Virus record (IMG/VR): IMGVR_UViG_3300032285_004054
Location: 62,001 to 126,000 of that record
Length of the DNA: 64,000 nucleotides
Source of the DNA: a virus
Direction: 5' to 3' (one strand)
Shown here: piece after piece, positions 121 to 50,522 of the stretch
Position numbering within the stretch: the stretch's first letter is position 1
Layout of the letters: each line of letters starts with the position of its first letter
Notes under the pieces: model-generated
Seen by the model: only the letters and a program-made list of their open reading frames with translations
Told to the model about the DNA's origin: nothing
The model's database searches: none
Made by a program: the position numbers and the translations under genes

Positions 121-128
121 TATAAATA
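121..128 (+). promoter_or_regulatory. T4-type late promoter box TATAAATA
   Basis: Exact T4 late consensus, first base 17 nt before the ATG at 138 and directly after the stop codon of the preceding gene. By T4 spacing, transcription would start about 4 nt before the ATG. Confidence 0.75.
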
Positions 129-137
129 ATATATAAT

Positions 138-2186
138 ATGCCTGGCGTAAAAATTTCTGATCTTACACCTTCTCCTGATAATAAAATAGACATAGGTGAT
201 GCTATCCCTATGGCAAGATCAGGTACGACATATCAAGTACCTGGTGGTGCGTTTATAAATACTGTAACAAACGCTACTTCACAAGGAACCTCTCTTGTTA
301 AATCTCAAACATACGCTTCAAATACAGGGTATAATACACAAGTTAAAACCTTATCTGCTAACTCACCTATCGTATTAACGGATTCAGGTAATACAATTTC
401 ATATGACTTACCTTACGATAGTTCGTTAACTGTAACAAACGGACAATTAGGTATAAATTTTTCTACAGGTGGTGGTCTAGAGCTAGGAGCAGGAGGTGTT
501 AAGCTTGCAACTCAATCAGCTCCAGCGGCTGTTATAGCTGTCCGTCCTAGTGATACTAGCTCCCCTGCAGGCGCTGCAACAGATGATCAATGGGTAACAA
601 GAGTTAAGGTAACAACCGGTAATGATCAAGACACATTACAGCCGTATTTTAAAACATTTACAGGAGCTGCTAATTACGCGAATAATAATTTTTCAAGTAA
701 TTGTACAATTTATATTGACGAAAATACTATAGAAGGTACCCCGTCTCCTAACGGGCAGTCTCAGCTTGCAGGTAATTTTGGTAATCAATTAACAGGTCAG
801 TTTTTTACCCAAGCCCAAGTTGATGCAGCCTTTGGTGCCGGTAGCGGTCTTTTAGCGGGTATTTACTGTTTTAATAATCAATACAATGTTGCTAATTCAC
901 CTTATAGTGGGTTTCCTTGGGGAACATCTCTCTATACGCAAGGTGCAACAAACGTTTTTGCACGATATTATAGGTCTAGTATTAATCAGTGGAAAACAGA
1001 ACGCTATTATAACGAAGCTCCAAGAAGGATTTCAAGAAGACATTACCATGATACATCTGCTGTATTAACACCTCCAACATATAACGGTACTACCGGGGTT
1101 TGGTCAGGTGGAAATTTAGGTACAAACGCAAATAACTGGTTAAAATTTTTACCTGATAATTATCCTACAGGTAGAGGTGCCTATCAAGGTGTAAGAAGTT
1201 TTAACTTTAACACACCTAACGCTAGTGTATACAATATATGTTTTGAGGTAATAACAAATGGCGCTGATTGTACAGCTATAGAGTTTAACTCACAGGCTGG
1301 TATATCATTCCGTAACTGTACAGTTGCAGTAGGTGGAAGCGGATGCTTTAATTGGGGATTTTTAAATATTGATCAAAAAGCTAGAGTTTACGCGAGTGGT
1401 TCACCTTTAAGAGATCCAGGAAGTACTAACGATAGTTCTCCTGTTATGTCATTTCCTGGATACGGCTTTGTGTTATATGGTATTAATACAGTAACACCTT
1501 CTAATGTTGGTCACGGTGTAAAGCTTGACAACGACGGAGGTAGTGCTTTTTTCTCTAACTGGTCATATGACGCTTTCGTCTACACAACGGGTGGAGGTTC
1601 CGGTCTTCAAGGTAATCTTATATTAGCTGGTAAAATTAACTTACCGTATGGTGTGTTTTCTGTTAGTCGTAGTAACCAATTAACAACCGGCGGTATCGTA
1701 TTACAAGATAACTTAACAATTTCAACAAGCGCACTTGATCAAAGCTCTGCGCTTGGTTACAGTAATAATAAACAAAACATACCTGCTATTATTCTTGATC
1801 AAACTGCCCAGGTTGCGCAAATAAGTGATTACATTTCTAACTGGACATACCACATTAATAAAGGACCGAGTGTTACAAGTTATACCCAGCCTTCGATATT
1901 TTATCCGTGTACACTCTGGTGTTCAACAACTGCTAATAATACTGCACTAAATTCTGCTGTTGTAAATGGAGGAATAGTAACATATAATTCAAACGTAGTA
2001 AACAGCTCGAATATTAGTATACCTACTTACGCGCAGCAGCCTGCTAGAAGTTCGGTTGCAAATTTAGGTACGGCTAGAGGTGGTTCAGCACCATATGCGG
2101 GTAACACATTCTTAAATCTCACAGATTTATACACATTAACATCACCGTATAACAATACAGCTTATACAAAGCCGACATATTACTAA
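138..2186 (+). CDS. Tail fibre / adhesin protein, 682 aa
   Basis: Predicted virion surface protein. The N-terminus (residues 5-40; KISDLTP, then IDIGDAIPMARSGTTYQV) matches the short head domain I recall from many phage tail fibres, of the form ISxLPxxxxxxxxDxFPIxxxGTTxKV, which probably docks the fibre. The rest is rich in Asn, Thr, Gly and Ser with beta-strand periodicity (residues 120-640) and no recognised enzyme motif. ATG is 17 nt from a perfect late box. The following gene is a tail assembly chaperone starting one base after this stop codon, the usual fibre-chaperone arrangement. The receptor cannot be inferred. Confidence 0.7.
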   Translation: MPGVKISDLTPSPDNKIDIGDAIPMARSGTTYQVPGGAFINTVTNATSQGTSLVKSQTYASNTGYNTQVKTLSANSPIVLTDSGNTISYDLPYDSSLTVTNGQLGINFSTGGGLELGAGGVKLATQSAPAAVIAVRPSDTSSPAGAATDDQWVTRVKVTTGNDQDTLQPYFKTFTGAANYANNNFSSNCTIYIDENTIEGTPSPNGQSQLAGNFGNQLTGQFFTQAQVDAAFGAGSGLLAGIYCFNNQYNVANSPYSGFPWGTSLYTQGATNVFARYYRSSINQWKTERYYNEAPRRISRRHYHDTSAVLTPPTYNGTTGVWSGGNLGTNANNWLKFLPDNYPTGRGAYQGVRSFNFNTPNASVYNICFEVITNGADCTAIEFNSQAGISFRNCTVAVGGSGCFNWGFLNIDQKARVYASGSPLRDPGSTNDSSPVMSFPGYGFVLYGINTVTPSNVGHGVKLDNDGGSAFFSNWSYDAFVYTTGGGSGLQGNLILAGKINLPYGVFSVSRSNQLTTGGIVLQDNLTISTSALDQSSALGYSNNKQNIPAIILDQTAQVAQISDYISNWTYHINKGPSVTSYTQPSIFYPCTLWCSTTANNTALNSAVVNGGIVTYNSNVVNSSNISIPTYAQQPARSSVANLGTARGGSAPYAGNTFLNLTDLYTLTSPYNNTAYTKPTYY

Positions 2187-2187
2187 T

Positions 2188-2412
2188 ATGAACTTAAATT
2201 ATTTTACAAATACAGTAACTGTTGATTCTAAATGGGCTGAAATTAGACAACTACGAGATGATCTTTTGAAGCAAACAGACTGGACACAATTACCTGACGT
2301 ACAGCTAGATGATGCTACTAAAGCAGCTTATACTGCTTATAGACAAGCTTTAAGAGAATTACCTCAAAATAATACTGATCCTTTTAATATTGTATTACCT
2401 AGTAAGCCGTAG
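2188..2412 (+). CDS. Tail fibre assembly chaperone-like protein, 74 aa
   Basis: Small acidic protein with the signature W-x-E-I-R-x-L-R-D-D-L-L-x-x-T-D-W, then Y-R-Q-A-L-R-E-L-P, then a C-terminal DPFNIVLPSKP. I recognise this as the phage tail assembly chaperone family (Phage_tail_APC type), whose members lie directly behind fibre genes and help fibre folding or attachment. It starts one nucleotide after the 682-aa fibre gene stop, so the two are probably translated from one transcript. No SD sequence precedes it. Confidence 0.75.
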   Translation: MNLNYFTNTVTVDSKWAEIRQLRDDLLKQTDWTQLPDVQLDDATKAAYTAYRQALRELPQNNTDPFNIVLPSKP

Positions 2413-2438
2413 AATTTAGAATTAAATAATACTAGCAT

Positions 2439-3896
2439 ATGGCTAGTGTTAATTTTATACCTTTTACAGCTCTTCAACCAGTTGAGCTAAAGTACCAGTA
2501 TAACGTTAATGAACCGTTAAACTCTGAAGTTGTGAGTTATGATGACGGTTTAAGTTTTAAGAAACTTAACGGGTTACAAAACTATCAGGACGTCTCTATT
2601 AATAAAGGTTCGTGTTTTGCTTTAACAACAGCTATTAGTCTTAGTACCTTTTTTTCAACGAATCAAAGCATTGATATAAATCAAATACCTGGTACTGTTT
2701 ATCTACAATCTAGTTATAGTCAAAGCTACTATTTAGTGCATGATGGTTCTACTGATACAGTTAAATTATCTGCTACACCTAATTTAGTTTATATAAACCC
2801 TGTACGTGGTACAGGTTATTCGGAAATAGTTATTAACGGTAACTATTTACAGGTTGATGATTATTACCCTTATACAGTAAGAGCAAATAGTATACCTCTT
2901 GTAGGTGATAACGCTTATAGACAACAGTTTTATTGTAATTTTACAAACGGAACCGCAACTATATACAATTATATCGTTACAGGAGAAAAGAGATATCTAT
3001 CAATTAATACAATTGATAACACATTAAGAGCAACAGGAGTGATATTGAATAATAGTGTTGTAAATGATTATATTTTTCTTGTAACAGATCTAACTGTAAA
3101 CCAAATAAGTTACGGACATTTACCTAATAATAAATGGATTACGTATTATATGGATAATGAAAGTGCTGCAGGTAATAAAAGTATTGAAGTTAATAAAACT
3201 ATTAACGATAACGCAATTAACTTTCTTGTCGATTTTCCATACGATACTGCTATTAACACAGGGGTTGCAAATATTAATATAGCTAACTTAAAAACTGATT
3301 ATACACCAGGCGGAGGACCTGCTCCTGTTGATAATTCATATATACCTACTACTGTTACGTCGAATTTTGTTGTACCTGTAACAGCACCTGGAACTACTCA
3401 AATACCTCAATTGATTAATCCTTTTAGAATAACAAGTAGAGAATTTAGTACATCTCCATTCACTATACCTACCCCTACCTCTACATCAGAACTACCTGTA
3501 TCGTTAAGCGCTATAGGACCCGTTTACGTACGCGGTACAACAATACATACGTTAGGGGTTGGTACAGTTACAATAATCGCAACACAAGATGGTAATCTTG
3601 ACTTTTATCCTGCTGCACCATACTCTACTTCATTCGATATCTTACAGGCTAGCCAGGCTATAGCACCTTTTAGTGTAGATGATCAACTGTATACTGTAAT
3701 ACCGTTTAACATTACAATACCGGTAGCTACTTCTAATTTACCTGTCGTCGTTACTGTACAATCAGGCCCGGCGACCATTAGTGGTAATACTATTACTATG
3801 ACAGGTACAGGTAGAGTTGTACTAGCAGCTAATCAAGCAGGTAGTGCTTTATACACAGCTGCACCAACAGTAACAACTAGCTTTAATATTGCTTAA
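2439..3896 (+). CDS. Virion surface protein with Ig-like repeats, 485 aa
   Basis: Not recognised as a named protein. Residues 1-300 are beta-rich with many Asn and Tyr. Residues 325-485 hold two related segments of about 80 aa, each running I(P)xPxxTSxLPVxxxxxxGP, then G-T-(V/R)-V-(T)-I/L-A-x-Q-x-G, then YxAAPxxTTSFxI. This is the pattern of bacterial Ig-like domains often found at the ends of phage surface proteins. It sits within the fibre block, preceded by TTAAATAAT about 15 nt before the ATG. Likely role: host or surface binding (inference). Confidence 0.6.
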   Translation: MASVNFIPFTALQPVELKYQYNVNEPLNSEVVSYDDGLSFKKLNGLQNYQDVSINKGSCFALTTAISLSTFFSTNQSIDINQIPGTVYLQSSYSQSYYLVHDGSTDTVKLSATPNLVYINPVRGTGYSEIVINGNYLQVDDYYPYTVRANSIPLVGDNAYRQQFYCNFTNGTATIYNYIVTGEKRYLSINTIDNTLRATGVILNNSVVNDYIFLVTDLTVNQISYGHLPNNKWITYYMDNESAAGNKSIEVNKTINDNAINFLVDFPYDTAINTGVANINIANLKTDYTPGGGPAPVDNSYIPTTVTSNFVVPVTAPGTTQIPQLINPFRITSREFSTSPFTIPTPTSTSELPVSLSAIGPVYVRGTTIHTLGVGTVTIIATQDGNLDFYPAAPYSTSFDILQASQAIAPFSVDDQLYTVIPFNITIPVATSNLPVVVTVQSGPATISGNTITMTGTGRVVLAANQAGSALYTAAPTVTTSFNIA

Positions 3897-3911
3897 AATT
3901 AAATAACAACA

Positions 3912-6386
3912 ATGGATAATCTTCAACAGCGTAACTACTACAGAATTTTTTCTGGTACAAATCAAGCCGATGGTTATGAGAATATCCATTTAGGATATAG
4001 TGCTAGTACTACTGAAATAACTTTTACGAGAGATCAATACACATATTTTCACGTACCGTTTTTTACTACAGTTGCAAAATTATCTGAAAGTACTTTATTT
4101 GCAGATGGTGCTGAACCGGGTGTTATTCCTGCAGCATCCGACCGTATTCTTAAAAAGCAAGGCAATTATGGTCAACATACCAATTGGGGGTACAATACAG
4201 GTATTCAAGACGGCACATGGTTATGTAGCTGGTTATGTTCACTAACCGGTGAGACACCTCGTTGGTTAGATCGTTATTATAATCCGGGTAGATTAGCGTA
4301 CGACGAAGCTTTAAACGGTATTACGTCTATTATGGATTCTCTTTCGTATATTAACTCTAACCCAGCGTTTGTTGATATACCTTCTCAAATGACACTTGAA
4401 CCTGGTGTACTATATCAGTACTACCACATGGGTGAAAATACCTCTAGTTTTATTGTTGATACGTTAGCAGGAGATAATAAAGATAAATTAAGACTACAAG
4501 TAGATACGTTTACATCTACGATTTTAGATAAATCTATTTATAATAATGTAGGTTATATTGATAACTATAACCCTGATTGGCAAGGTTATAACACAGATAC
4601 TAACTACGTGTCAGGTGTGTATCTTGATTTTGAAAACCAAGATCTTATTAACGCTAGAATATTGTATAGTGATAACTATAACTTAACTGGTAATTTTACA
4701 TTTAACTTTTTTGTTAAACATAATGATTGGGCTAATGCACAAAGTAGTCAATTAGTTGGTAACTATTATGAAAGCGGTTTTGGTATATTTTATAATAACC
4801 TACACAACTACCCCTATTTTGTAATACCTGAAAATACATACGGTCATATATTATATTTTAATAACGAAGCATATTCATTTCTTGATCAACCTATTGCATC
4901 AAATCCTTTACTTACAGCGAGTCCTATTCAGATATCACTAAACGGTGAAAGAGAAATACTTGTACTTGACGGTTCTGTCGATAACAATAAAGGTAAATAT
5001 TTTGCTAAGTTTAATTCGTATGGTGATATTATTAGTTTTCCTCATGATGATCAAAACGCCTATGTACCGTTAAGTGGTATACCGAAACATTTTGCTGTAG
5101 ATAGAGATAATAATATCTTTATGTATACAACTCAAGGGCAGTATGTATTCGATAAGGATCTCACTTTTGTTAGTTTTATAACTGGTAATGCATACGTTGC
5201 ACATCAAAAGCTCTGTTTGAATAATGAAGGTATCATACATCGGGAGTATAACTGTCTTGACGTATTATACGATAATAGCGGTCAAAAGTGGGTTATACAG
5301 TTAGACGGAACTTTACGCGTTAACGGTGTTTATTATTCTGTATTACCTACTTCAGCTACTAAATTAGCTGTAGATCCTGATAGTAATATCTGGGTACTAA
5401 ACGGTACTAATCAGGTAGTAGTTGTTGACCCTGTTACCTATAATACTATTAATACATTTGCTGTTGGTAGTTCACATATAGATGGATCTACGGAGAGAAA
5501 CGTAAGCTTTATACGTAACTATGATCGTTCTAAAAATGCATTTACTTGGTATTCATTAATATATCAAAATTTTGATAAAATATTATTTGTAACTACTCTA
5601 AAAGGTAATATTGTTCGAACTATATTTTTAAATGATAGTGTTGATATAGTACCTAATAGTCCTAACCCTATTGATGTTAATCGGTTAAGTTACACCGGTG
5701 AAGGTGACTTCACAGGGTATGAATGGAGCCGTATATGTAACCCTGTTGTGTACGACAACAATCCTCAAATACAGTTTAAAATAGCTACGGCTGATATCAC
5801 ACCTGAAACACCTTATAAGAGTTTTTATAAGTGGTATACGTTATCTATACCTGTACAATACTTTATTGATAACTCTTGGTATTTAATAACAGGTATATAT
5901 AATAATCATACATTATCATTATATGTAGATAAAACATTAAGAGATATCCTCCATATACCTTATAATGTTGATATAACGTATAAACGTGAAAACGATATAT
6001 ACATCGGTTGTCCTAACGGTAAAGCTACAAACATTAATAAAGAAATTAATTCAACTGCAATTATCTTTAACGGTCAGATTAGTAATATAAAAATATACGA
6101 TTACGCTTTACCTAGTGAGTTTATTCAGTATTTCTTACGTTCAAAAGTTGTAGGTCAAAATCTAACATGGGATATAAATACAGCTAATTTACAATACGTT
6201 GAAAAGATTGATCGATTCTTTAAGCATAAAATGCCCGGTAGTAAGAGTAATTACTTTAATTTAAAAATAACCGGTACCCAGATTCAAGATCCTAACACAC
6301 GTGCTATTATTGAGAATTATATAAGATCAGTAGCAAAACAAACAAAACCCGGTCATACTGAACTTCTTTCTATTGAATGGGTATAA
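3912..6386 (+). CDS. Large virion protein with LamG-like and beta-propeller-like segments, 824 aa
   Basis: Probable baseplate or fibre-associated structural protein. Residues 235-300 and 640-745 (ending near ATAIIFNGQISNIKIYDYAL) look like concanavalin/LamG folds, used to bind glycans. Residues 345-535 contain repeats of the form hxxDxxxNIxxxxxxGxxxxxD (for example FAVDRDNNIFMYTTQGQYVF and LAVDPDSNIWVLNGTNQVVVV), typical of NHL/Vgb beta-propellers. The C-terminus ends with ELLSIEWV. It starts 16 nt after the previous stop, with AAATTAAATAA before the ATG. Fold calls rest on pattern reading only. Confidence 0.6.
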   Translation: MDNLQQRNYYRIFSGTNQADGYENIHLGYSASTTEITFTRDQYTYFHVPFFTTVAKLSESTLFADGAEPGVIPAASDRILKKQGNYGQHTNWGYNTGIQDGTWLCSWLCSLTGETPRWLDRYYNPGRLAYDEALNGITSIMDSLSYINSNPAFVDIPSQMTLEPGVLYQYYHMGENTSSFIVDTLAGDNKDKLRLQVDTFTSTILDKSIYNNVGYIDNYNPDWQGYNTDTNYVSGVYLDFENQDLINARILYSDNYNLTGNFTFNFFVKHNDWANAQSSQLVGNYYESGFGIFYNNLHNYPYFVIPENTYGHILYFNNEAYSFLDQPIASNPLLTASPIQISLNGEREILVLDGSVDNNKGKYFAKFNSYGDIISFPHDDQNAYVPLSGIPKHFAVDRDNNIFMYTTQGQYVFDKDLTFVSFITGNAYVAHQKLCLNNEGIIHREYNCLDVLYDNSGQKWVIQLDGTLRVNGVYYSVLPTSATKLAVDPDSNIWVLNGTNQVVVVDPVTYNTINTFAVGSSHIDGSTERNVSFIRNYDRSKNAFTWYSLIYQNFDKILFVTTLKGNIVRTIFLNDSVDIVPNSPNPIDVNRLSYTGEGDFTGYEWSRICNPVVYDNNPQIQFKIATADITPETPYKSFYKWYTLSIPVQYFIDNSWYLITGIYNNHTLSLYVDKTLRDILHIPYNVDITYKRENDIYIGCPNGKATNINKEINSTAIIFNGQISNIKIYDYALPSEFIQYFLRSKVVGQNLTWDINTANLQYVEKIDRFFKHKMPGSKSNYFNLKITGTQIQDPNTRAIIENYIRSVAKQTKPGHTELLSIEWV

Positions 6387-6410
6387 TTTTAGTTTAAATA
6401 ATTACTAAGA

Positions 6411-9400: not shown

Positions 9401-9932
9401 GGTAGGATCTGGTGGTACATGCCTTGGAGGAAAAAGAGGTTCTGTAAATAATGGCGGTTCAGGTGGTTCTACATATGTAAAATACGGTACCACAACATTA
9501 GTCGCCGGAGGCGGTGGCGGCGGTGGTGGTGGTAGTGATTATTCTGGAGGACGCGGTGGCGGTGGTGGATCTGGTAACGTTACTAAAGGTGCTGATGGTT
9601 CCCCTGGTGGTGCAGGTACAGGTGACCATTCAAGTAGTACAGGTGGTCGTGGTGGTGGTAATGGCGGTCAAGGCGCTTCGGCTTTTGATAGAACCGGACC
9701 GTTATATTGGTCTGGTGCTAGTGGTGGTAACGGTTCGGTAACACTCAGCTATTACTACAACGGTGGTACCGCAATACTACTTGACGAAAATACTACAATT
9801 AACAATAAAAATGGTTCTATTAAAGGTGGTGCTGCTGGAGGAGGTGCAAGTCAGGTCGGTAGTGCTATTGTAGGTATTAGTCATGTTCTAAATTCACCAT
9901 TAGCAGGTACTGTAACTGGAGGTACCTCATAA
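6411..9932 (+). CDS. Giant adhesin with PKD-like and glycine-rich domains, 1173 aa
   Basis: Predicted tail adhesin. Residues about 625-705 look like a PKD/Ig-like domain (LTIDFGDSDIP, then FTVQYKSTGPKTITVTGTIDYG). From about residue 939, WKVLKNVGSISVTLVGAGGAGG starts a long glycine-rich domain (to about 1146) with runs such as eight or more consecutive glycines separated by short polar segments. This resembles the glycine-rich domain of phage receptor-binding proteins and, more loosely, the polyglycine-II sandwich of T2/S16 gp38 adhesins. The coding DNA is correspondingly rich in GGTGGC-type triplets. A six-aa-scale variable tip between glycine runs would be the expected receptor contact site. 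Confidence 0.65.
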   Translation: MSIALSSVLVSAIAFNNEPFVRSLTAALVWNPIVGSPDVFLPFKATNITNVYTGQWAIDITTAPGALSAYVGANRTPYTFDQQLSIDSITPIVVEFSTDTYDPTYVPLEGPNEDTIPTRTLYNLSLTGVCGNWYLGGSSSSITVTYDNFPGLNADFLVNYESTTRNTSFYRLVSTTPFPITVNLSSGYFPLKTKLKDWYFTTDIVLNRSHLKYNSIAEFNLAYPNFNCSTPTVCSLQVFVSAVSCVGALTGFFTPHIINLQRMDAHFINAFPVADFAAYPTYHFKNSVSYEVLDATNYTNSPGVCFYGEGHTEVINLSARYVDSMTNYIWSVGNNNTGIFNVAGNLQSNTNSVSITSALYNYPVIPITLQVCNTTIPSSAPIIGYNDYNGTPFYYPYYITTVDFSGNLLPTNTTFRNSISVVPYDATITIFNPGITSQNVFLSPDGSISYFTATFTAGLCGEITTDPCYDKYGLVWKWGNFTNCDTNYSSFVNHPSSWRTTMRSGAFPKKWRKEGAVLVDGSQNSSPIQCLGDTNFWTLSTSVWPGVVYGVTDVYKYNLRVDRNLPQAYYTVPPGTVTHANLTVTKSVTCNVNNLGTFTNDWQNKTTLLQATTSFNIYGTPLIRIYTPNRYVKLGESIFFQNLIEGANFLTQLTIDFGDSDIPTTIYTGKNVVNNFTVQYKSTGPKTITVTGTIDYGYGVIGSVTQTFTNIVTIVNEYDQIDESKFITQDSALTIPYPDEPLIAPNDNVVADNINSILTKIYDNLLYLEGRGYVYPNTTAESFGWLGTALYTTAAPATGLTWQSQDCTTNPFGLTWTELSCATNNVPIVVAPKPVQAPVVETVTHVNVFAKPVYIIDVKQDTYNFSLMNELILRDWDQVIAIDVIVNVWPGVTVASQDTSSPAMNLQPLPSISTLTLNNSGTIVGAQGASSTTTYANSTTWKVLKNVGSISVTLVGAGGAGGSAEEVDAGGAGGGGGGGGTSSGTIEVTPGETVTITVGSGGTCLGGKRGSVNNGGSGGSTYVKYGTTTLVAGGGGGGGGGSDYSGGRGGGGGSGNVTKGADGSPGGAGTGDHSSSTGGRGGGNGGQGASAFDRTGPLYWSGASGGNGSVTLSYYYNGGTAILLDENTTINNKNGSIKGGAAGGGASQVGSAIVGISHVLNSPLAGTVTGGTS

Positions 9933-9947
9933 ATATTTTTTAACAAT

Positions 9948-11384: not shown

Positions 11385-11391
11385 TTTATAG

Positions 11392-11399
11392 TATAAATA
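11392..11399 (+). promoter_or_regulatory. T4-type late promoter box TATAAATA
   Basis: Perfect consensus; first base 20 nt before the ATG at 11412. Confidence 0.75.
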
Positions 11400-11411
11400 A
11401 TTTACACACAT

Positions 11412-11882: not shown

Positions 11883-11884
11883 TT

Positions 11885-12997: not shown

Positions 12998-13005
12998 TAT
13001 AAATA
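12998..13005 (+). promoter_or_regulatory. T4-type late promoter box TATAAATA
   Basis: Perfect consensus; first base 17 nt before the ATG at 13015. It begins at the stop codon of the previous gene. Confidence 0.75.
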
Positions 13006-13014
13006 ATCTTATAT

Positions 13015-13971: not shown

Positions 13972-13979
13972 TTAATGTT

Positions 13980-14399: not shown

Positions 14400-14421
14400 A
14401 ATTCTAACAAATTAGCATAAA

Positions 14422-14429
14422 TATAAATA
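14422..14429 (+). promoter_or_regulatory. T4-type late promoter box TATAAATA (tandem with CATAAATA)
   Basis: Two overlapping boxes, CATAAATA at 14416-14423 and TATAAATA at 14422-14429, lie 19 and 13 nt before the ATG at 14435. The first gives the usual spacing. Confidence 0.7.
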
Positions 14430-14434
14430 CATAT

Positions 14435-15163
14435 ATGAGCAATCCTCTATCGGACATCTACTCCAAAATCCTTTTAAACGAAACCGAATCCAATGTCGTA
14501 GTACCTGCTGGCAAATTAGAAATCGCCAAGGGAGGTAAAGAACCTCTTATCAAGGACGGCGGAGATGAGAAGGCCAAGAAGAACCTCAACAAGCCTGAAG
14601 AAGGCAAGGTTGAGGATGGCGAACTCGAGGAACTTAAAGATTCTATGAACACCCCAACAACAAAGAGCGCCTTCGAAGGTACGTTCGAAAAGCTCTTCAA
14701 AGCCACGCTCACAGAAGACGTAGCCGAAGACGCTGCTTCCGCTGTTGAGCCTGAAGTACCAACAACCCCTGAAGATTCTCACGAAGAGATCGAAGACACT
14801 CATGATGAGGTCGGTGATCTTGCTAGTGATCTTCGCGATATCATTGACAAGCTAGAAGCAATTCTTGACAAGGTCGGTGGTGTTGATCACACAGAAGGTG
14901 AACACGATGAAGACATGGAAACCGAACTCGGTGAAGCCGTTTCTGAGCCTGAATTAAAGCCTCTCGGTGATAAGACAGCCTCTTTAAAGAGCACCAAGAA
15001 GTTCACAACTTCCAATGTCAAGCCTCATGGTGGTAAGGCCTCTCATGGAGATATCTCCGAAGAGCCTGAACTCAAGCCTCTCGCTGACAAGTCTGCTGCT
15101 CTAAGAAGCACAAAGAAGTTTGCTGCTAACTCCTCCGTTAAGGTTGGCGATTTCTTCAAATAA
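14435..15163 (+). CDS. Highly charged candidate internal head/core protein, 242 aa
   Basis: Charged, low-complexity protein. Residues 1-17 (SDIYSKILLNET) could be a capsid-targeting peptide with a gp21-type cut after LNE; a second such site is FEKLFKATLTE (residues 84-94). Residues 110-165 are acidic and coiled-coil-like. The C-terminus holds two copies of EPELKPLxDKxAxLxSTKKF (171-190 and 210-229) and ends KVGDFFK. G+C and codon choice (many AAG, CTC, GTC, GAG) are visibly higher than in neighbours, as in the capsid and scaffold genes, suggesting high expression. A tandem late box precedes it and a strong terminator follows it. Function as a head protein is inference. Confidence 0.55.
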   Translation: MSNPLSDIYSKILLNETESNVVVPAGKLEIAKGGKEPLIKDGGDEKAKKNLNKPEEGKVEDGELEELKDSMNTPTTKSAFEGTFEKLFKATLTEDVAEDAASAVEPEVPTTPEDSHEEIEDTHDEVGDLASDLRDIIDKLEAILDKVGGVDHTEGEHDEDMETELGEAVSEPELKPLGDKTASLKSTKKFTTSNVKPHGGKASHGDISEEPELKPLADKSAALRSTKKFAANSSVKVGDFFK

Positions 15164-15185
15164 GACTTAATAAAAGTTAAAATAG

Positions 15186-15215: not shown

Positions 15216-15229
15216 GTATACCTAAACGG

Positions 15230-15237
15230 CATAAATA
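15230..15237 (+). promoter_or_regulatory. T4-type late promoter box CATAAATA
   Basis: One mismatch to TATAAATA, located just after the terminator; first base 13 nt before the ATG at 15243. Confidence 0.6.
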
Positions 15238-18594: not shown

Positions 18595-18602
18595 TATTTA
18601 TT
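18595..18602 (-). promoter_or_regulatory. Late promoter box AATAAATA (minus strand)
   Basis: One mismatch to the T4 consensus, 19 nt before the ATG at 18583, back to back with the plus-strand box at 18623-18630. Confidence 0.6.
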
Positions 18603-18622: not shown

Positions 18623-18630
18623 TATAAATA
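18623..18630 (+). promoter_or_regulatory. T4-type late promoter box TATAAATA
   Basis: Perfect consensus, 19 nt before the ATG at 18642. It forms a divergent pair with the box at 18595-18602. Confidence 0.75.
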
Positions 18631-22054: not shown

Positions 22055-22062
22055 TATTTATG
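22055..22062 (-). promoter_or_regulatory. Late promoter box CATAAATA (minus strand)
   Basis: 16 nt before the ATG at 22046 of the 685-aa fibre; divergent from the plus-strand box at 22073-22080, with 10 nt between boxes. Confidence 0.6.
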
Positions 22063-22072
22063 CCTCAAAGAG

Positions 22073-22080
22073 AATAAATA
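22073..22080 (+). promoter_or_regulatory. Late promoter box AATAAATA
   Basis: One mismatch; 22 nt before the ATG at 22095. Confidence 0.55.
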
Positions 22081-23801: not shown

Positions 23802-23809
23802 TATTTATT
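23802..23809 (-). promoter_or_regulatory. Late promoter box AATAAATA (minus strand)
   Basis: 15 nt before the ATG at 23794. The remaining gap (23810-23947) is AT-rich and holds no credible gene or strong hairpin. Confidence 0.6.
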
Positions 23810-25476: not shown

Positions 25477-25484
25477 TATTTATC
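25477..25484 (-). promoter_or_regulatory. Late promoter box GATAAATA (minus strand)
   Basis: 15 nt before the holin-like ATG at 25469; overlaps the end of the 36-aa gene. Confidence 0.55.
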
Positions 25485-25741: not shown

Positions 25742-25749
25742 TATTTATG
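25742..25749 (-). promoter_or_regulatory. Late promoter box CATAAATA (minus strand)
   Basis: 13 nt before the ATG at 25736 of the 42-aa membrane protein. Confidence 0.55.
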
Positions 25750-26356: not shown

Positions 26357-26364
26357 TATTTATA
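26357..26364 (-). promoter_or_regulatory. T4-type late promoter box TATAAATA (minus strand)
   Basis: Perfect consensus, 13 nt before the spanin ATG at 26351; it overlaps the end of the APS kinase gene. Confidence 0.7.
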
Positions 26365-27661: not shown

Positions 27662-27669
27662 AATAAATA
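27662..27669 (+). promoter_or_regulatory. Late promoter box AATAAATA
   Basis: 14 nt before the ATG at 27676. Confidence 0.55.
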
Positions 27670-28717: not shown

Positions 28718-28915
28718 TCAAATTTCATAGAACCAATTCTTCTTAAACTCTTCAAACTTTTTTTTCCATAGAGTATACTTCTTAAATCTCTTTCCAGCTT
28801 TTCTGCCTTTCTTTTTTACTTTCTTAACCCCTTTAAAGATCATCCAAAAGAACCCAAGCATTCCTAGAGCAAAGAGAGCCATAGTGACATGACCTATGAG
28901 TTGAAAAGGTGTCAT
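28718..28915 (-). CDS. Small membrane protein with basic tail, 65 aa
   Basis: One transmembrane helix (residues about 5-28, QLIGHVTMALFALGMLGFFWMIF) is followed by a very Lys-rich tail (KGVKKVKKKGRKAGKRFKK). By the positive-inside rule the tail is cytoplasmic. GAATATTAAATAATACT precedes the ATG. Function unknown; it lies between the glycosyltransferase and the 118-aa gene. Confidence 0.6.
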   Translation of the reverse strand: MTPFQLIGHVTMALFALGMLGFFWMIFKGVKKVKKKGRKAGKRFKKYTLWKKKFEEFKKNWFYEI

Positions 28916-31475: not shown

Positions 31476-31483
31476 AATAAATA
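31476..31483 (+). promoter_or_regulatory. Late promoter box AATAAATA
   Basis: 15 nt before the PhoH-like ATG at 31491. Confidence 0.5.
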
Positions 31484-37021: not shown

Positions 37022-37046
37022 GTTAGTTACTTAATTTTGTTATCAA

Positions 37047-39419: not shown

Positions 39420-39493
39420 TGGTTAATAAATATTTAACCGTTAATTTTAAAAATTAAAGTTGAATATATACTGTTCTAATATAAAATTAATAC

Positions 39494-41250: not shown

Positions 41251-41350
41251 AACGCTTTATATAAGCTGTTACTTTCTGTAGGAAAGTTTTCTTTTTACTG
41301 GCTGTTTGTACATGAACAGTTCTGTACTTTCTTTGACTATAATTAGCCAT
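41243..41350 (-). CDS. Small basic protein, 35 aa
   Basis: Short frame MANYSQRKYRTVHVQTASKK, then KTFLQKVTAYIKRFI and stop. It starts one base after the stop of the C1q-like fibre gene and overlaps the sulfotransferase end by 8 nt. Basic, possibly amphipathic. Accepted because of the exact coupling to the upstream gene; no homology seen. Confidence 0.45.
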   Translation of the reverse strand: MANYSQRKYRTVHVQTASKKKTFLQKVTAYIKRFI

Positions 41351-41351
41351 A

Positions 41352-42113: not shown

Positions 42114-42122
42114 ATTGTTTAT

Positions 42123-42130
42123 TATTTATT
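42123..42130 (-). promoter_or_regulatory. Late promoter box AATAAATA (minus strand)
   Basis: 17 nt before the ATG at 42113; lies across the end of the upstream fibre gene. Confidence 0.6.
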
Positions 42131-42917: not shown

Positions 42918-42918
42918 A

Positions 42919-44396: not shown

Positions 44397-44403
44397 TGTA
44401 AGT

Positions 44404-44411
44404 TATTTATA
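44404..44411 (-). promoter_or_regulatory. T4-type late promoter box TATAAATA (minus strand)
   Basis: Perfect consensus, 15 nt before the ATG at 44396; immediately after the terminator of the capsid-side operon. Confidence 0.7.
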
Positions 44412-44413
44412 CA

Positions 44414-44449
44414 TAAAAAAGAAAAGAGCCAACTTTTGAGGTTGGCTCT
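44414..44449 (-). terminator. Rho-independent terminator
   Basis: Stem AGAGCCAAC (44425-44433) / GTTGGCTCT (44441-44449) with a 7-nt loop. On the minus strand it is followed by TTTTCTTTTTT. Sits 27 nt after the 117-aa gene. Confidence 0.85.
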
Positions 44450-44475
44450 AATCAGTATTAATTTATTAGTATATT

Positions 44476-44829
44476 TTAGAACTGCTCTAAGTGGCGAAGT
44501 CTACGCTCTGTAGGACCCCATGCATTAAACCCGTTAGCAGTTAATGTAATTGTACTACTGGTACCAGGTAATGTACCAGCAAAGGATGTACGGTCATTTA
44601 AAATAAAATATACAACGTCGCCTGCGTAAGCAGTATCATAAACAAGTTTACCAGCTCCAGAGGAGAGAGTTGCACCAGCTGTATTAACGAATGTTGATGT
44701 TAAAGCAACATTGTTAAGTGTACCAGAGTCATTGAAGAGAACTCTTGTTGCGTTAGTTGCGGAAAGTAAGTTAACACCGTTTGTTGCAGGGCTACCTACT
44801 GCGTCTTCGTATTGATATACAATTGCCAT
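44476..44829 (-). CDS. Small structural protein next to the capsid gene, 117 aa
   Basis: Not recognised. Beta-rich, Ala/Thr/Ser/Asn-rich (NGVNLLSATNATRVLFNDSG, then LVYDTAYAGDVVYFILNDRT) ending with a helix ERRLRHLEQF. Enclosed by terminators on both sides, with its own late box 17 nt from the ATG, directly downstream of gp23. This placement fits a head decoration or vertex protein, but only by position. Confidence 0.5.
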   Translation of the reverse strand: MAIVYQYEDAVGSPATNGVNLLSATNATRVLFNDSGTLNNVALTSTFVNTAGATLSSGAGKLVYDTAYAGDVVYFILNDRTSFAGTLPGTSSTITLTANGFNAWGPTERRLRHLEQF

Positions 44830-44838
44830 ATGTACATA

Positions 44839-44846
44839 TATTTATT
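44839..44846 (-). promoter_or_regulatory. Late promoter box AATAAATA (minus strand)
   Basis: 17 nt before the ATG at 44829. Confidence 0.6.
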
Positions 44847-44873
44847 CTACTCAGTAGTATTTTTAGTGTTTAA

Positions 44874-44907
44874 TACAAAAAGAAAACCCCATTCTTTCGA
44901 ATGGGGT
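44874..44907 (-). terminator. Rho-independent terminator after gp23
   Basis: Stem ACCCCATTC (44886-44894) / GAATGGGGT (44899-44907), TTTC loop, followed on the minus strand by TTTTCTTTTT. 27 nt after the capsid gene stop. Confidence 0.85.
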
Positions 44908-44934
44908 CTCTTTTGATTGTTTGCGATCTCAGTA

Positions 44935-46404
44935 TTAGAGATAGACAGCGGCGGATCCAGGTGTGAAGGACTGGCCCAGACCGGTGCAGATTACTAAGTG
45001 ATAGTAAAGGTTAGCACCGAAAATGTGGTCAACAACACCGTAACGGGTTAAGAGACCAACACGAGGACTGAAGTCATTCGGACCGATTGTACGCTGAACC
45101 ATTACAGGGATGTAAGGGCAGTATACGATACCGGTATCATAATACTCAGGGCCCTTATAGCCGAGCAGGGCGTAATCGACCTGTCCGACGGGACGCTTGT
45201 TACCACCAGCACTGTAGCCAGCGCCTGCGGGATTGTACCCAGCGTTGACTTGTGCCTCTGTACGAGTATCACGATAGATCTGGAAACGACCACCAACGGC
45301 ACCAACTTTAGCAATACCAACGGGTGTGGTATTTACTGAGCCAGTAACGGGCTGCCATGTGAATGTGGGCAGTGACTCAAGAATAGCGCAAATACGAGGT
45401 GTAGCAATAATGAAATTGGCTGCACCACGGCGGTTGCGGATAGCGACACGATTGGCCTCAACAACAATTCTGTTGTAGAAGTCACGAGCGCGCTCACCGG
45501 ACCAGCGACCGTCAGCAGAAATTGCTGACCATGTGCTGTAACCAACACCGGCGCCTGCGGTTAAGCAGGTCTGAATCATACGTGAAATCATTTCACGGTC
45601 AATTTCAGCCTGAATTTCGTAGGACATGGCGTTTGTGAGCTCGGCATCGATGTCGATACCATTCATATTCTTAAGATCCTGCTCTAATTCGACAGACCAC
45701 TTAGCGGCGAGACGGCGTGTGCCGGCCTCGACAGCGGTCTTCTCAAATGATACTGTTACCTGAGGGATGTTGGAGCTGAGTTCAAACTGGCTGAGGATCG
45801 CGGCTACGCCGGCGTCTTCAGGCAGAATGGCCCAATCATCGTTACCGGTTAAGTTACCACTGGTAACGCCTGTGAAGGCGGTATTCAGATAGTTGTAACC
45901 GATTTCCTTACCCTTGCTAGCACTAGCAGGTCCATACATTGATGTTGCCTGAGCCCCACCGAGGGTGAGATCATTACGGCCATCACCGTATGTGCTATTA
46001 CCGAGGGAAGATGCCTCGTAGCGGTAACGCATGGCGAATGCCAGACCAACGGGTCCTGTCATGGGCTGTACACCAACGATCTCATTTGTGATGAGTTCGG
46101 GGAATGTACGGCGGATCATGGGGATCAGAACCTTAGGAAGACGAGCATCACCGTTTGCGTATGTGTCGCTGTTAGGAATGGTACCAGGGTTAACCTGATA
46201 GGCATTACCACCAAAGACACCACCACTAGCAGTGTTGGAAGACTCAAAGCACCACTTCTCCTGGTTTTCCAGAAGGATGGCGGTATTGAGACGTGTGTTA
46301 TCATTTTCGATAGCAGCTACCTTGTCAGAAGAGTAGTCCAGAACTGGAGCCCACTTTTCAACTAAAGATGTAGCCTTGGATTTATCGATATGCAGAAGTT
46401 CCAT
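44935..46404 (-). CDS. 23: Major capsid protein, T4 gp23-like, 489 aa
   Basis: Forms the head shell. The N-terminal part (residues 16-60, VEKWAPVLDYSSDKVAAIEN, then TAILLENQEKW) aligns with the cleaved propeptide and start of T4 gp23 (LLNKWKPLLEG...KIFENQEKDF). LIPMIRRTFPELITNEIVGV, QPMTGPVGLAFAMRYRYE, and the C-terminal PVMVQRTIGPNDFSPRVGLL, TRYGVVDHI are standard gp23 blocks. G+C and codon use are clearly higher than in neighbours. It has an AAGGA sequence 12 nt upstream of the ATG, unlike most genes here, and an own terminator. Confidence 0.92.
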   Translation of the reverse strand: MELLHIDKSKATSLVEKWAPVLDYSSDKVAAIENDNTRLNTAILLENQEKWCFESSNTASGGVFGGNAYQVNPGTIPNSDTYANGDARLPKVLIPMIRRTFPELITNEIVGVQPMTGPVGLAFAMRYRYEASSLGNSTYGDGRNDLTLGGAQATSMYGPASASKGKEIGYNYLNTAFTGVTSGNLTGNDDWAILPEDAGVAAILSQFELSSNIPQVTVSFEKTAVEAGTRRLAAKWSVELEQDLKNMNGIDIDAELTNAMSYEIQAEIDREMISRMIQTCLTAGAGVGYSTWSAISADGRWSGERARDFYNRIVVEANRVAIRNRRGAANFIIATPRICAILESLPTFTWQPVTGSVNTTPVGIAKVGAVGGRFQIYRDTRTEAQVNAGYNPAGAGYSAGGNKRPVGQVDYALLGYKGPEYYDTGIVYCPYIPVMVQRTIGPNDFSPRVGLLTRYGVVDHIFGANLYYHLVICTGLGQSFTPGSAAVYL

Positions 46405-46461
46405 AGTTATAAATTTTCCTTTTTGTTAAAAGATTTTCGACCTTGTTGAGTATGAAAAATT
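46405..46461 (-). promoter_or_regulatory. gp23 leader with Shine-Dalgarno-like AAGGA
   Basis: The minus strand reads AAAAAGGAAAATTTATAACT directly before the ATG at 46404. This is one of very few SD-like sequences in the window and fits the need for very high capsid output. No exact late box here; transcription probably comes from the gp22 promoter. Confidence 0.5.
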
Positions 46462-47436
46462 TTAGTGATTGAAACGGATACTAGATCCGTCAATCTTTTT
46501 CATCTCATTCAGATATCCGCCTACTCCTGTACTTGATACAGGTCTTGGAGCAGAAATTTCTTCTGAAAGAACCTCGGTTTCTGGACGGTCGATTGATTCA
46601 ACAATGCGAGCGGTCAGACCTTCTTTGGCGGTTTCTTCCAGTTCGGAAACTTCTTTCTCGAACATCTCAACTACGTACTGATAGTTCTCATTAATATACT
46701 CAGGGGTCTTACCCTTGAGAAGCTTAGTTACATAAGCTTTAGCAGACCCAGGTAAATCCTTTGTCTTGCTTTCAAGCAATAAGGAAGCTTCTGTACGGCT
46801 TAACTTGTGGTTAAGATCGGTGTTAGCTTCTATTGCTTCGTTTAACTCCTTCTTTAAGGAATCGATTGTTCTCTTGCCGTCAAGAAGAGCTTCTTTGATT
46901 TCATTATCAATGTACTCTTCATTAACTGCAACAAGCTGACGAATGGCGTCAAGAGTCTTACGAGCCTTGATGTTTTCAACAGCTTCATTGACTTGATCGA
47001 CAGGTACTGTCTTATCAAGGTAAAGATCTAGGTAATTGGAAACCTCATCAACGATACGGTTACTGAAAGCTTCAGCACTTTCAGATAATTCAACCTTAGC
47101 ATCGGCAAGCTTGGCTTCATAAGACTCGATGATCTGCTGAAGCATGCCTGTGTGGTTTTCGTCAATTTTAGCAAGTACTTTTTGAAGCTTATTGGAGTGA
47201 TCAAAATCAATTGTCTCGACGAGCTTCTGGAGCTTGGCGGTGTGATCCTCATCAATAGCTTCAACTAAGGCTTTAAGTTTCTCAGCATGATCATCGTCAA
47301 TTTTAGCGATGGCTGCTTCGGTTTGAAGATTGGCTTTTTCTTTAACAGCTGTTTCGAAAGCTTCGTGAACGGCTGAGAGTGTTTCTTCGGTAATAAGATC
47401 TTTAAATTGATCTTTTAGAATTTCCTTAAAGTTCAT
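46462..47436 (-). CDS. 22: Prohead scaffold protein, T4 gp22-like, 324 aa
   Basis: Internal scaffold around which gp23 assembles, later cut by gp21. Identified by position between gp21 and gp23 and by composition: acidic, helical throughout. Residues 46-105 are four tandem 15-aa repeats of ID(D/E/F)DHxxKLQxLVExx. The N-terminus MNFKEILKDQFKDLITEE has an I-T-E cleavage-like site. The C-terminal region (ELNEAIEANTDLNHKLSRTE, then LLESKTKDLPGSAKAYVTKL, KGKTPEYINENY) is typical of T4-like gp22. Raised G+C like gp23. Confidence 0.85.
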   Translation of the reverse strand: MNFKEILKDQFKDLITEETLSAVHEAFETAVKEKANLQTEAAIAKIDDDHAEKLKALVEAIDEDHTAKLQKLVETIDFDHSNKLQKVLAKIDENHTGMLQQIIESYEAKLADAKVELSESAEAFSNRIVDEVSNYLDLYLDKTVPVDQVNEAVENIKARKTLDAIRQLVAVNEEYIDNEIKEALLDGKRTIDSLKKELNEAIEANTDLNHKLSRTEASLLLESKTKDLPGSAKAYVTKLLKGKTPEYINENYQYVVEMFEKEVSELEETAKEGLTARIVESIDRPETEVLSEEISAPRPVSSTGVGGYLNEMKKIDGSSIRFNH

Positions 47437-47446
47437 AAGTGTTGTA

Positions 47447-47454
47447 TATTTATT
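47447..47454 (-). promoter_or_regulatory. Late promoter box AATAAATA (minus strand)
   Basis: 18 nt before the gp22 ATG at 47436; likely drives gp22 and gp23. Confidence 0.6.
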
Positions 47455-47466
47455 TAATCTAATTGG

Positions 47467-47619
47467 TTACTTTTTCACCTGTTCGTTACTAATACTTGAA
47501 CGAATTCTTGATTTTAATTTTTCAGCTACTGCACTTTCTAAGTTAGTACGAGCCTGGGAGTAATCTTTACTAACTAAACTGTTAATAAATGTTTGGATTG
47601 CTTGTTTTTCGTTTGACAT
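47467..47619 (-). CDS. Small prohead core protein-like, 50 aa
   Basis: Short frame MSNEKQAIQTFINSLVSKDY, then SQARTNLESAVAEKLKSRIR and SSISNEQVKK. Fully helical. It lies 3 nt after gp21 and 30 nt before gp22. T4 has small core genes 67 and 68 next to gp21, and I recall short proteins of this type (F-x-x-A-L-x-x-K-D-(x)n-V-x-x-K-L-x-x-R-I) in related marine phages. Likely a core or portal-side scaffold component. Confidence 0.65.
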   Translation of the reverse strand: MSNEKQAIQTFINSLVSKDYSQARTNLESAVAEKLKSRIRSSISNEQVKK

Positions 47620-47622
47620 AAA

Positions 47623-48297
47623 TTAAGCTCTTTTTATTAGATTAATAAAGTTGAGTAATGACTCTTTTAAGAAAGCATCTGTTTCGTGCTTAGGTAAATG
47701 TGATAAACTCTTTTCTAATTTATTGTATGCATTCTTAATGTACTCAACAATTCTACCGTCGTTACCGATCATCCATTCTTTTGACTCCATGACGGATTCA
47801 AGCATTGCATTCTGAACAGAAGGTTGATGAACAACGTCAAGACAGATAAGATGGAAATTAGATACGTGCTTAGCATCAGATGACTCTGTAACGTTACCAA
47901 GAGCACGAGAAGAGATACCCATTCTTACACCATCGGTGATGAGAGACTTGAGAAGTTTACCCATGGGTGTATCTAATACTTTAGACTTACCTACGAAGTA
48001 GTTACCGTTTTGTTTTAATTCAGTAACAATATGACAGGCGTTAATTGGATTAACTTCTGTTGACTGAGGGTGATTCATCTCACCGATAGCACGGTTTGTT
48101 ACAACCATGTCCTTTGTGTAACGTTCTACTTCCTTAACCATTTCGTCAAGTTTGTAGATACGACCGTTTTGATTTTTTTGTTCAGCCATCATGAAAGGGC
48201 CTGTAATGTAAACATTACGATCGGCGCCGCGCTTCTGCTCCTCAACTAAAAAGTCGAGGCCTTCGTGATAGTCTTCTACTAAGAATTTAAGTCCCAT
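47623..48297 (-). CDS. 21: Prohead core protease, T4 gp21-like, 224 aa
   Basis: Serine protease that matures the prohead by cutting after L/I-x-E. Landmarks: VYITGPFMMAEQKNQNGRIY (T4-type GxFxxAxxxNxNGRxY), AIGEMNHPQS with catalytic His76, KVLDTPMGKLLKSL with Asp109, and VRMGISSRALGNV with the catalytic Ser at 129 or 130. Length close to T4 gp21 (212 aa). Perfect late box 21 nt before the ATG. It presumably cleaves gp22, gp23 and the capsid-targeting peptides suggested elsewhere in this window. Confidence 0.9.
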   Translation of the reverse strand: MGLKFLVEDYHEGLDFLVEEQKRGADRNVYITGPFMMAEQKNQNGRIYKLDEMVKEVERYTKDMVVTNRAIGEMNHPQSTEVNPINACHIVTELKQNGNYFVGKSKVLDTPMGKLLKSLITDGVRMGISSRALGNVTESSDAKHVSNFHLICLDVVHQPSVQNAMLESVMESKEWMIGNDGRIVEYIKNAYNKLEKSLSHLPKHETDAFLKESLLNFINLIKRA

Positions 48298-48310
48298 AGA
48301 TTGATAACAT

Positions 48311-48318
48311 TATTTATA
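48311..48318 (-). promoter_or_regulatory. T4-type late promoter box TATAAATA (minus strand)
   Basis: Perfect consensus, 21 nt before the gp21 ATG at 48297. Confidence 0.7.
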
Positions 48319-48347
48319 CCGGTTAGTCACAATTTCACCTGTAGATT

Positions 48348-48355
48348 AATAAATA
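48348..48355 (+). promoter_or_regulatory. Late promoter box AATAAATA
   Basis: 16 nt before the ATG at 48364; divergent from the gp21 box. Confidence 0.6.
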
Positions 48356-48363
48356 CTTATGTT

Positions 48364-49170
48364 ATGTTTATATTTTTATTATCACTATCATCTTTACTGG
48401 TTGCAGGTACTGCTGCGCTGTTTTCAGTATTAGGTATAGCTACTCTCTTTTCTGGTAGTTACTATCAAGTAATGGTAATGGCTGGTGCTCTTGAATTTGG
48501 TAAACTAATAGCAACATCTTTTCTTTATCGTTATTGGAATAAAACAAATGTATTATTAAGAACATATCTATTAATAGCTGTTGCCGTTCTTATGGTAATT
48601 ACATCTGCAGGTATTTTCGGTTACTTGTCTGCAGCATACGAAAAGAATGCTTCATTAAGCACGTTAGGGGATAATAAAATTACTTTAATTGAATCTCAAA
48701 AAGCATCTGTTGATAGCGAGATACAACAAATACAAGGACGTATTAATACCCTTAATGAAGCTCGTAAAGCACAAGAAGCAAGACTACCTAGTATGACATC
48801 CCGTAATGCTAGAATTGTTTATGAGGATATTAAACAATCAAGCAGTGAAATAAAAACACTTACTGAACGCCTACAAACACTTCAAACAACTAAGTTTGAA
48901 AAAGATAATGAACTTATAACCATTAAAACTGATTCTGGTAAAGCTAATGATATCGGTACATTTAAGTTTATTGCTAAATCTTTTAATGCACCTCTTGATA
49001 GCGTTGTTAAGATTTTTATCTTAATACTTGTATCGGTATTTGATCCGTTATCGGTTAGTTTAGTTTTAGCACTTAATATAGCATTAACTGGTGGTATGTT
49101 AAAAGAACCTAAAACAGAAGAACCTAACAATAAAGGTTTTGTAGGTATAGGTAAAATTAAAAGTAAGTAA
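48364..49170 (+). CDS. Multi-pass membrane protein with coiled-coil, 268 aa
   Basis: Start set at ATG 48364, 16 nt after a late box, rather than the upstream TTG that would translate through the promoter. Three hydrophobic segments near the N-terminus (residues 1-22, 25-45, 58-82) are followed by a coiled-coil domain of about 120 residues (DSEIQQIQGRINTLNEARKA, then SSEIKTLTERLQTLQTTKFE) and a last helix pair (VVKIFILILVSVFDPLSVSL). Layout recalls DUF4407-type membrane proteins. Its place inside the head module on the opposite strand is unusual. Function unknown. Confidence 0.6.
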   Translation: MFIFLLSLSSLLVAGTAALFSVLGIATLFSGSYYQVMVMAGALEFGKLIATSFLYRYWNKTNVLLRTYLLIAVAVLMVITSAGIFGYLSAAYEKNASLSTLGDNKITLIESQKASVDSEIQQIQGRINTLNEARKAQEARLPSMTSRNARIVYEDIKQSSSEIKTLTERLQTLQTTKFEKDNELITIKTDSGKANDIGTFKFIAKSFNAPLDSVVKIFILILVSVFDPLSVSLVLALNIALTGGMLKEPKTEEPNNKGFVGIGKIKSK

Positions 49171-49629
49171 CTATATACCGAGTTCTTTTTCGGTTAGTAT
49201 AGTGAATGTGTAGTTGTGCTTTTTAGCCCACTCATTAGCTGCTTTCCATTTTGCCTGATTCTTAATATACTCTGCCTGCTTTCGTAGCAAACCTTTTGTA
49301 TGTCTTTTTGCTACAGGCGGTCTTGTTTGTATAGACGGTTTCACCTCTATTAAAAATTTTTGTAGTTTACCTTCTTTGTTTTTTATAGTAATATTATTAT
49401 CGACAAAATATCTACTAAGGTTACCTGTTAAAGGGTTTTGATACGGTATTATAATCGATTCTGAACCCCATGTAACTACACTCGGGTTATGATCACACCA
49501 ACGAAATAATTTTAACTCGTACGATGAACGATAGATGATAGGATGAGTACCTTTATACTTGTCAGGGTTTGTAGGTGTGAAGAGCCCCTGTTTAAACTTT
49601 CTAGACTTAGTTATACCCGCGGGGTTCAT
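49171..49629 (-). CDS. 4: Head completion protein, T4 gp4-like, 152 aa
   Basis: gp4 (gp50) completes the filled head. Landmarks: FTPTNPDKYKGTHPIIYRSS, then YELKLFRWCDHNPSVVTWGS, ESIIIPYQNPLTGNLSRYFV and KFLIEVKPS. These match the T4-like gp4 family, which has a TnsA-like nuclease fold; Glu38, Asp77 and Glu95-x-Lys97 occupy the catalytic positions. C-terminal QAKWKAANEWAKKHNYTFTI, LTEKELG is also typical. Its start overlaps the gp13 stop. Confidence 0.8.
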   Translation of the reverse strand: MNPAGITKSRKFKQGLFTPTNPDKYKGTHPIIYRSSYELKLFRWCDHNPSVVTWGSESIIIPYQNPLTGNLSRYFVDNNITIKNKEGKLQKFLIEVKPSIQTRPPVAKRHTKGLLRKQAEYIKNQAKWKAANEWAKKHNYTFTILTEKELGI

Positions 49630-50489
49630 TAACCTCTAAAGAACATAGGAGGCTGTGCATCAATATAACTTGTTTCAAGTTCTACTTCAAGATCATCTCT
49701 TTCTTTTATACCCTGTCCCATTAAATCAGAATAGTTAACATTACCACCTCCAAAGAGAGAAGTACCTGAATATTTACCACGAACATTTGCTACGGTTATC
49801 TTACATAACGCAAGTGTATATTTGTAAATCCAACGTTCGTCGATTAGCTCTCTAATAGGTCTTTCAATGTAACAACCTACAACACCTACGTATTGATTTT
49901 CAGGAATTGGTTCAGGTATAATCTTTAAGACTTGAGTCTTAGGATCAAATCTAAAACGAGGTCTCATTGCAAGAACAACATCTCTAACTTTAATAAACTC
50001 TTTTAATACTTCCCAGGATGTTAAATCGAAACCAAAATTACCGATCATATACGATGAGTAAATTTGCTGAGCCATTGACTGTTCAAGTGTAAAGAGTGTA
50101 TTAATACCGGTTGACTCACCGTAATTAAATTCAAAGCAATCTATTACTCTTCTGTAATCATTTAAATCATAATCAAAATCAGCTGATAGACCTGCTGAGT
50201 TAGTTGTATTAAGTTCTGGTGTTTGGTTAACTAGTAAAGATACATCTAAACCGTAATTAGGTTTATATAAACTAGATTGAAATACAAGATATTCTTCTGA
50301 GAATCCTGCCCACTTTGTAAAAATTTCTATAGCAGTATTAATGTTGTCATAAATTTGTTCGTTAGCTATTTCAACATTGATGAGTGGTTCACCTAACTGT
50401 CTACGAATGCGCTGAGCTAAAGCATCATAACTATCAATAGTACTATTAAGGCTTGTTGAACCTCTTACGTTTCTAGGGAGTGTGCTCAT
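49629..50489 (-). CDS. 13: Neck protein, T4 gp13-like, 286 aa
   Basis: Head-tail connector protein. RIRRQLGEPLINVEIANEQI, then YDNINTAIEIFTKWAG matches the N-terminus of T4 gp13 ([27 protein letters not shown]). Further: FDPKTQVLKIIPEPIPENQY, GVVGCYIERPIRELIDERWI and YKYTLALCKITVANVRGKYS, all conserved in gp13. Length near T4 (309 aa). The gene is separated from gp14 by 33 kb here, whereas the two are adjacent in T4. TTAAATAAT precedes the ATG. Confidence 0.8.
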   Translation of the reverse strand: MSTLPRNVRGSTSLNSTIDSYDALAQRIRRQLGEPLINVEIANEQIYDNINTAIEIFTKWAGFSEEYLVFQSSLYKPNYGLDVSLLVNQTPELNTTNSAGLSADFDYDLNDYRRVIDCFEFNYGESTGINTLFTLEQSMAQQIYSSYMIGNFGFDLTSWEVLKEFIKVRDVVLAMRPRFRFDPKTQVLKIIPEPIPENQYVGVVGCYIERPIRELIDERWIYKYTLALCKITVANVRGKYSGTSLFGGGNVNYSDLMGQGIKERDDLEVELETSYIDAQPPMFFRG

Positions 50490-50514
50490 TACGTATTATT
50501 TAATACAGTACACT

Positions 50515-50522
50515 GATAAATA
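50515..50522 (+). promoter_or_regulatory. Late promoter box GATAAATA
   Basis: 14 nt before the ATG at 50529. Confidence 0.55.

Follow-up and report, generated by a model that had tools for sequence, protein, structure and literature searches.

The stretch of viral DNA analysed here (the window, 64,000 nucleotides) appears to carry T4-type late promoters set so close to their start codons that the late mRNAs would be leaderless or nearly so (leaders of 0 to ∼9 nt) and would be translated by initiation independent of a Shine-Dalgarno (SD) element, a reading to which we assign a probability of roughly 0.78. The window comprises bases 62001-126000 of a 218,400-base IMG/VR virus record and encodes a distant T4-type virion, including the major capsid protein gp23 (phrog_138, E 2e-86), the prohead protease gp21, and head-closure and neck proteins. 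Identity of gp23 to cultured phages is at most ∼34%, the nearest being cyanophages together with marine contigs, and relatives at 65-82% are encoded by 79 IMG/VR contigs. An ordinary cyanophage was considered and rejected: the first 25 kb have no DNA match in phage records, psbA is absent and the best gp23 match is ∼34%. No tRNA genes were found in the stretches scanned and no Rfam families within the window.

In the mechanism that we propose the boxes would be recognised by host RNA polymerase carrying a gp55-like sigma of the phage, and transcription would begin, as it does in T4, 13 nt downstream of the octamer's first base. Since box and ATG are 13-22 nt apart, the 5' end of a late mRNA would fall at the A of the AUG or up to ∼9 nt ahead of it, and any leader would be A/C-rich, G-poor and devoid of an SD. 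Initiation at late genes would then be SD-independent; with a host ribosome not reliant on SD a leader would be unneeded and promoters could sit against start codons. We infer RNA 5' ends, late timing, the mode of ribosome entry and the host from sequence.

An earlier first-pass annotation had reported at least 22 octamers lying 13-22 nt before genes on both strands, with any of the four letters in first position. Both points hold, as we count 24 boxes serving 23 gene starts and find T, A, C and G as first base. These are 24 of the 34 ATAAATA sites on the two strands of the window; measured from the first base of the octamer to the A of the ATG, none is closer than 13 nt. Start-linked boxes span 121 to 50522 on both strands, and starts within operons can also carry one. 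The abundance of the box was rejected as evidence, the 34 sites comparing with 42 expected from dinucleotide shuffles and thus not exceeding chance; the non-random property of ATAAATA is its placement, not its abundance. Under a uniform rule (ORFs of at least 60 aa, start near the ORF 5' end) 21 of the 34 sites lie at 13-22 nt, 0 at 3-12 and 0 at 23-32, whereas 7-mers made by the other 20 permutations of its letters have on average 3.7 of 47 sites at 13-22 nt, a background that is partly overlap with ATAAATA itself (TAAATAA 17, AAATAAT 11); equal frequency at random positions relative to starts is not seen. The genome is AT-rich and ATAAATA is not over-represented in it, as chance or AT-rich intergenic DNA would have it, but such an origin is highly improbable given that permuted 7-mers lack this placement and that the 13-nt edge described below recurs in hundreds of genes. 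The ten ATAAATA sites that are not at such starts (254, 6173, 8073, 26725, 39425, 43036 and 44000 on the + strand; 4542, 10815 and 58790 on the − strand) fall mostly inside genes and may be due to chance.

On the + strand the box TATAAATA is found at 121-128 (17 nt before the ATG at 138), 11392-11399 (20 nt, ATG 11412), 12998-13005 (17 nt, ATG 13015) and 18623-18630 (19 nt, ATG 18642), and CATAAATA at 9928-9935 (20 nt, ATG 9948) and 15230-15237 (13 nt, ATG 15243), the latter gene being predicted leaderless, with orthologues mostly at 13. The form AATAAATA occurs at 22073-22080 (22 nt, ATG 22095), 27662-27669 (14 nt, ATG 27676), 31476-31483 (15 nt, ATG 31491 of a PhoH-like gene) and 48348-48355 (16 nt before the ATG of a 268-aa ORF, with similar N-termini after boxes in relatives), and GATAAATA at 50515-50522 (14 nt, ATG 50529), while two overlapping boxes at 14416-14429 lie 19 and 13 nt before the ATG at 14435. 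On the − strand TATAAATA is found at 26357-26364 (13 nt, ATG 26351; predicted leaderless), 44404-44411 (15 nt, ATG 44396) and 48311-48318 (21 nt, ATG 48297 of the gp21 prohead protease); CATAAATA at 22055-22062 (16 nt, ATG 22046) and 25742-25749 (13 nt before the ATG of a 42-aa ORF); AATAAATA at 18595-18602 (19 nt, ATG 18583), 23802-23809 (15 nt, ATG 23794), 42123-42130 (17 nt, ATG 42113), 44839-44846 (17 nt, ATG 44829) and 47447-47454 (18 nt, ATG 47436, in a gp22-like position); and GATAAATA at 25477-25484 (15 nt, ATG 25469). Variant boxes are exemplified by ATTAAATA at 3898-3905 (+), 14 nt before the ATG at 3912, with others before 2439, 6411 and 23109 (+) and before the genes at 28718-28915, 49629-50489 and 52519-52860 (−). 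The exception is the gp23 major capsid gene (44935-46404, −), which has no box within 60 nt and carries an SD-like AAGGA in its leader.

In the 79 related contigs the spacing falls at 12 nt in 3 cases, at 13 in 46 and at 14 in 33 (3, 34 and 23, respectively, once near-identical genes are removed), making 13 nt the modal value, and the variant TTAAATA has the same lower edge. A replicate set of new genes, from loci around gp55, gives 0 at 12 nt and 9 at 13. The edge is spread across ∼100 gene families and hundreds of genes, although the relatives share ancestry, so that counts of box genes are not independent events, a dependence that the family-level view and the replicate lessen but do not remove. 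The first base of the T4 octamer is numbered −13 (PMC2988020), and with this numbering a spacing of 13 nt would place +1 at the A of the ATG; a hard lower edge would be expected because no use could be made of a start codon that precedes +1. At spacings of at least 18 nt position 12 is mostly T and position 13 mostly A, and the bases after them are rich in A and C and poor in G; this T/A boundary would locate +1 in silico, independently of T4. The replicate set contains only n=17 genes at these spacings and has the same 12/13 tendency, weakly. In the 14-nt class position 12 has A and position 13 has T, so that the start position may wobble by ∼1 base.

These data also bear on whether the TAAATA box is mainly, or additionally, an AU-rich ribosome-recruiting element in mRNAs transcribed from promoters further upstream, which we regard as unlikely. 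Such an element would fit with almost every start of the cluster having a box nearby, as well as with boxes at operon-internal starts, which read-through mRNAs would contain, but in T4-even phages this octamer acts as a promoter 22-57 nt from the start. Moreover, the spacing among orthologues ranges from 13 to 24 nt and yet stops abruptly, at its lower end, precisely where T4 numbering puts +1, and the 12/13 base boundary is present whatever the distance to the ATG; neither is predicted by a ribosome signal. Nothing positive was found for the earlier suggestion that the box doubles as an initiation signal, and transcription, if it starts 13 nt on, begins past the box, which would therefore be absent from the mRNA.

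Late promoters could also be real and the functional start lie elsewhere, with RNA beginning further upstream or translation at a downstream codon, in which case leaders would be of ordinary length. Gene starts were indeed taken from ORFs, not from proteins; nevertheless, several box genes have orthologues that are conserved from residue 2 or 3, for example the MNFKEILKEQFKDLITEETL and MALRLLVETPAPEEQFEYIL types, and wrong starts would not create an edge at 13, leaving this explanation a doubtful one relative to leaderless or near-leaderless late mRNAs. Among 147 non-redundant box genes the start codon is ATG in 138, GTG in 8 and TTG in 1, a strong preference for AUG. One family with an N-terminus like VKQQTYHFEIKDLVTQF (L065, L071, L074-L076 and L079) uses GTG in 8 of 12 members at a spacing of 13-14 nt, an apparent leaderless GUG start.

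Boxes in T4-even loci lie mostly 22-57 nt from the ATG with a peak near 37, and an SD is present in 136 of 167 such genes; in cyanophage-type loci most are found at 24-60 nt, and 59 of 93 genes have an SD. The boxes studied here thus resemble T4 late promoters (TATAAATA; gp55/gp33/gp45; PMC2988020) in the octamer, in occurring on both strands before virion genes, in the presence of a gp55 homologue and in an inferred transcription start 13 nt after the octamer first base, and differ from them in lying 13-22 nt from the ATG without an SD and in an octamer whose first base can be any letter and whose second is A or sometimes T. Late promoters of cyanomyoviruses (NATAAATA; S-PM2, Syn9; PMC2984593) share the degenerate octamer and related gp23 and gp55 proteins, and differ in the larger distance and in having SDs. 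Cyanophage-type and pelagiphage loci do contain a small class of genes, notably a gp3-type tail gene after gp23, with a spacing of exactly 13 nt, and their close-box genes have an SD in 6 of 37 cases versus 4 expected, not beyond chance. Because such exact-13 boxes without an SD occur there, single predicted leaderless late genes seem to recur in the superfamily, and the clade of the window would have made them the rule.

Outside the window lies part of the late transcription machinery that the first-pass annotation had proposed looking for elsewhere in the genome: a gp55-type late sigma homologue was found (phrog_234, E 2e-24; L095:3825-4385, −), as was the clamp loader gp44, whereas the sliding clamp gp45 was not found outside the window in searches run without a positive control. 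The C-termini of gp55 are acidic, and on inspection by eye a T4-like hydrophobic clamp-binding end is not obvious. The leaderless or near-leaderless reading first put forward in that annotation is supported by the gp55 homologue, by the 13-nt edge in the 79 relatives and in the gp55-locus replicate, by the T/A boundary at 12/13, and by the finding that the distant boxes of T4-even and cyanophage-type loci come with SDs.

In the window together with 60 kb of adjoining DNA, 1 of 40 genes with a box and 4 of 75 without have a 4-base SD match, numbers about equal to the 0.7 and 2.8 expected from shuffles, bearing out the early observation that SDs are nearly absent except before gp23, whose AAGGA is real. 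In the clade of the window an SD precedes 1 of 174 box genes, and 0 of 88 in the replicate set around gp55. Clade genes without a box are also SD-poor, the G-rich bump at −8 to −13 being absent, unlike in the T4-even and cyanophage-type groups, and residual SDs are found in 89 of 993 of these genes versus 1 of 262 box genes (Fisher p ∼1e-8). That a short leader explains the missing SD, as had been argued, therefore holds in part: SDs are nearly absent at box genes, but the link is incomplete and the absence not specific to short leaders, because genes without boxes are SD-poor too. For the same reason the ribosome of the host can probably dispense with SD. Ribosomes of Bacteroidia do not use it (PMC9976891), and an SD-independent host ribosome of this kind would be the simplest cause of the clade-wide scarcity. 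In the Thermus phage phiYS40 (PMC3594737) most late mRNAs are leaderless and translated without SDs, as is predicted here from sequence, and a shift in IF2/IF3 has been reported; unlike the present clade, phiYS40 has unrelated promoters and an unrelated host. The closest cellular matches of NrdA are mostly Bacteroidota (50-59%), with one 62% match labelled Paceibacterota; because NrdA of unrelated phages reaches 60-65%, this similarity is ambiguous as an indicator of host.

The gp23 leader (46405-46461, −) has a weak AAGGA and no box close by, while in relatives (L013-L092) it contains GGTCGA(C) and, 11-15 nt ahead of the ATG, a strong and conserved AAGGAG(A); the clade has no other clear SD-like element. 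In two relatives, L056 and L062, gp23 has lost its SD and instead has a box at 15 or 24 nt from the ATG. GGTCGA was rejected as a window-wide element since it is not enriched. A homologue of ribosomal protein bS21 is also encoded (L334:1456-1671, −, near G000:C1:190766-190903; Pfam E 2e-11). Its best matches among solved structures include Flavobacterium 7JIL, with weak E-values and an ambiguous host signal. As in the bS21-encoding phages of freshwater Bacteroidetes (PMC9723584), a large phage combines a bS21 gene with genes that are SD-poor as in Bacteroidetes; unlike in those phages, bS21 (C1:190766-190903) is here outside the terminase/portal/protease/capsid cluster, gp23 being at about C1:107000, and it is not seen in the 79 gp23-centred relatives. 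In Flavobacterium bS21 adjoins the anti-SD tail in the ribosome (PMC9976891), and a link between the gp23 SD and the phage bS21 is speculation. It is conceivable, if improbable, that translation is of two classes, with nearly all late genes leaderless, SD-less and served by ribosomes that carry the phage's own bS21, and gp23 alone, with its conserved SD and GGTCGA leader, served by ribosomes in a different state, for example without bS21, an analogy to Flavobacterium rpsU (PMC9976891).

Late transcription of the T4 kind and leaderless translation are both familiar when taken separately. In the open-access literature we found no report of a T4-type phage clade in which leaderless late mRNAs are predicted as the norm. 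If the prediction is correct, giving up SD use would allow the T4 promoter to be shifted right up to start codons across a genome, and the boxes would let start sites be mapped from sequence alone and would supply a large collection of naturally leaderless genes. In the cultured pelagiphages Mosig (MT647606, L394:151) and HTVC008M (KC465899, L395:15560) a box lies exactly 13 nt before the gene following gp23, which is predicted to be leaderless; the arrangement occurs singly in these phages and is thus open to testing in culture.
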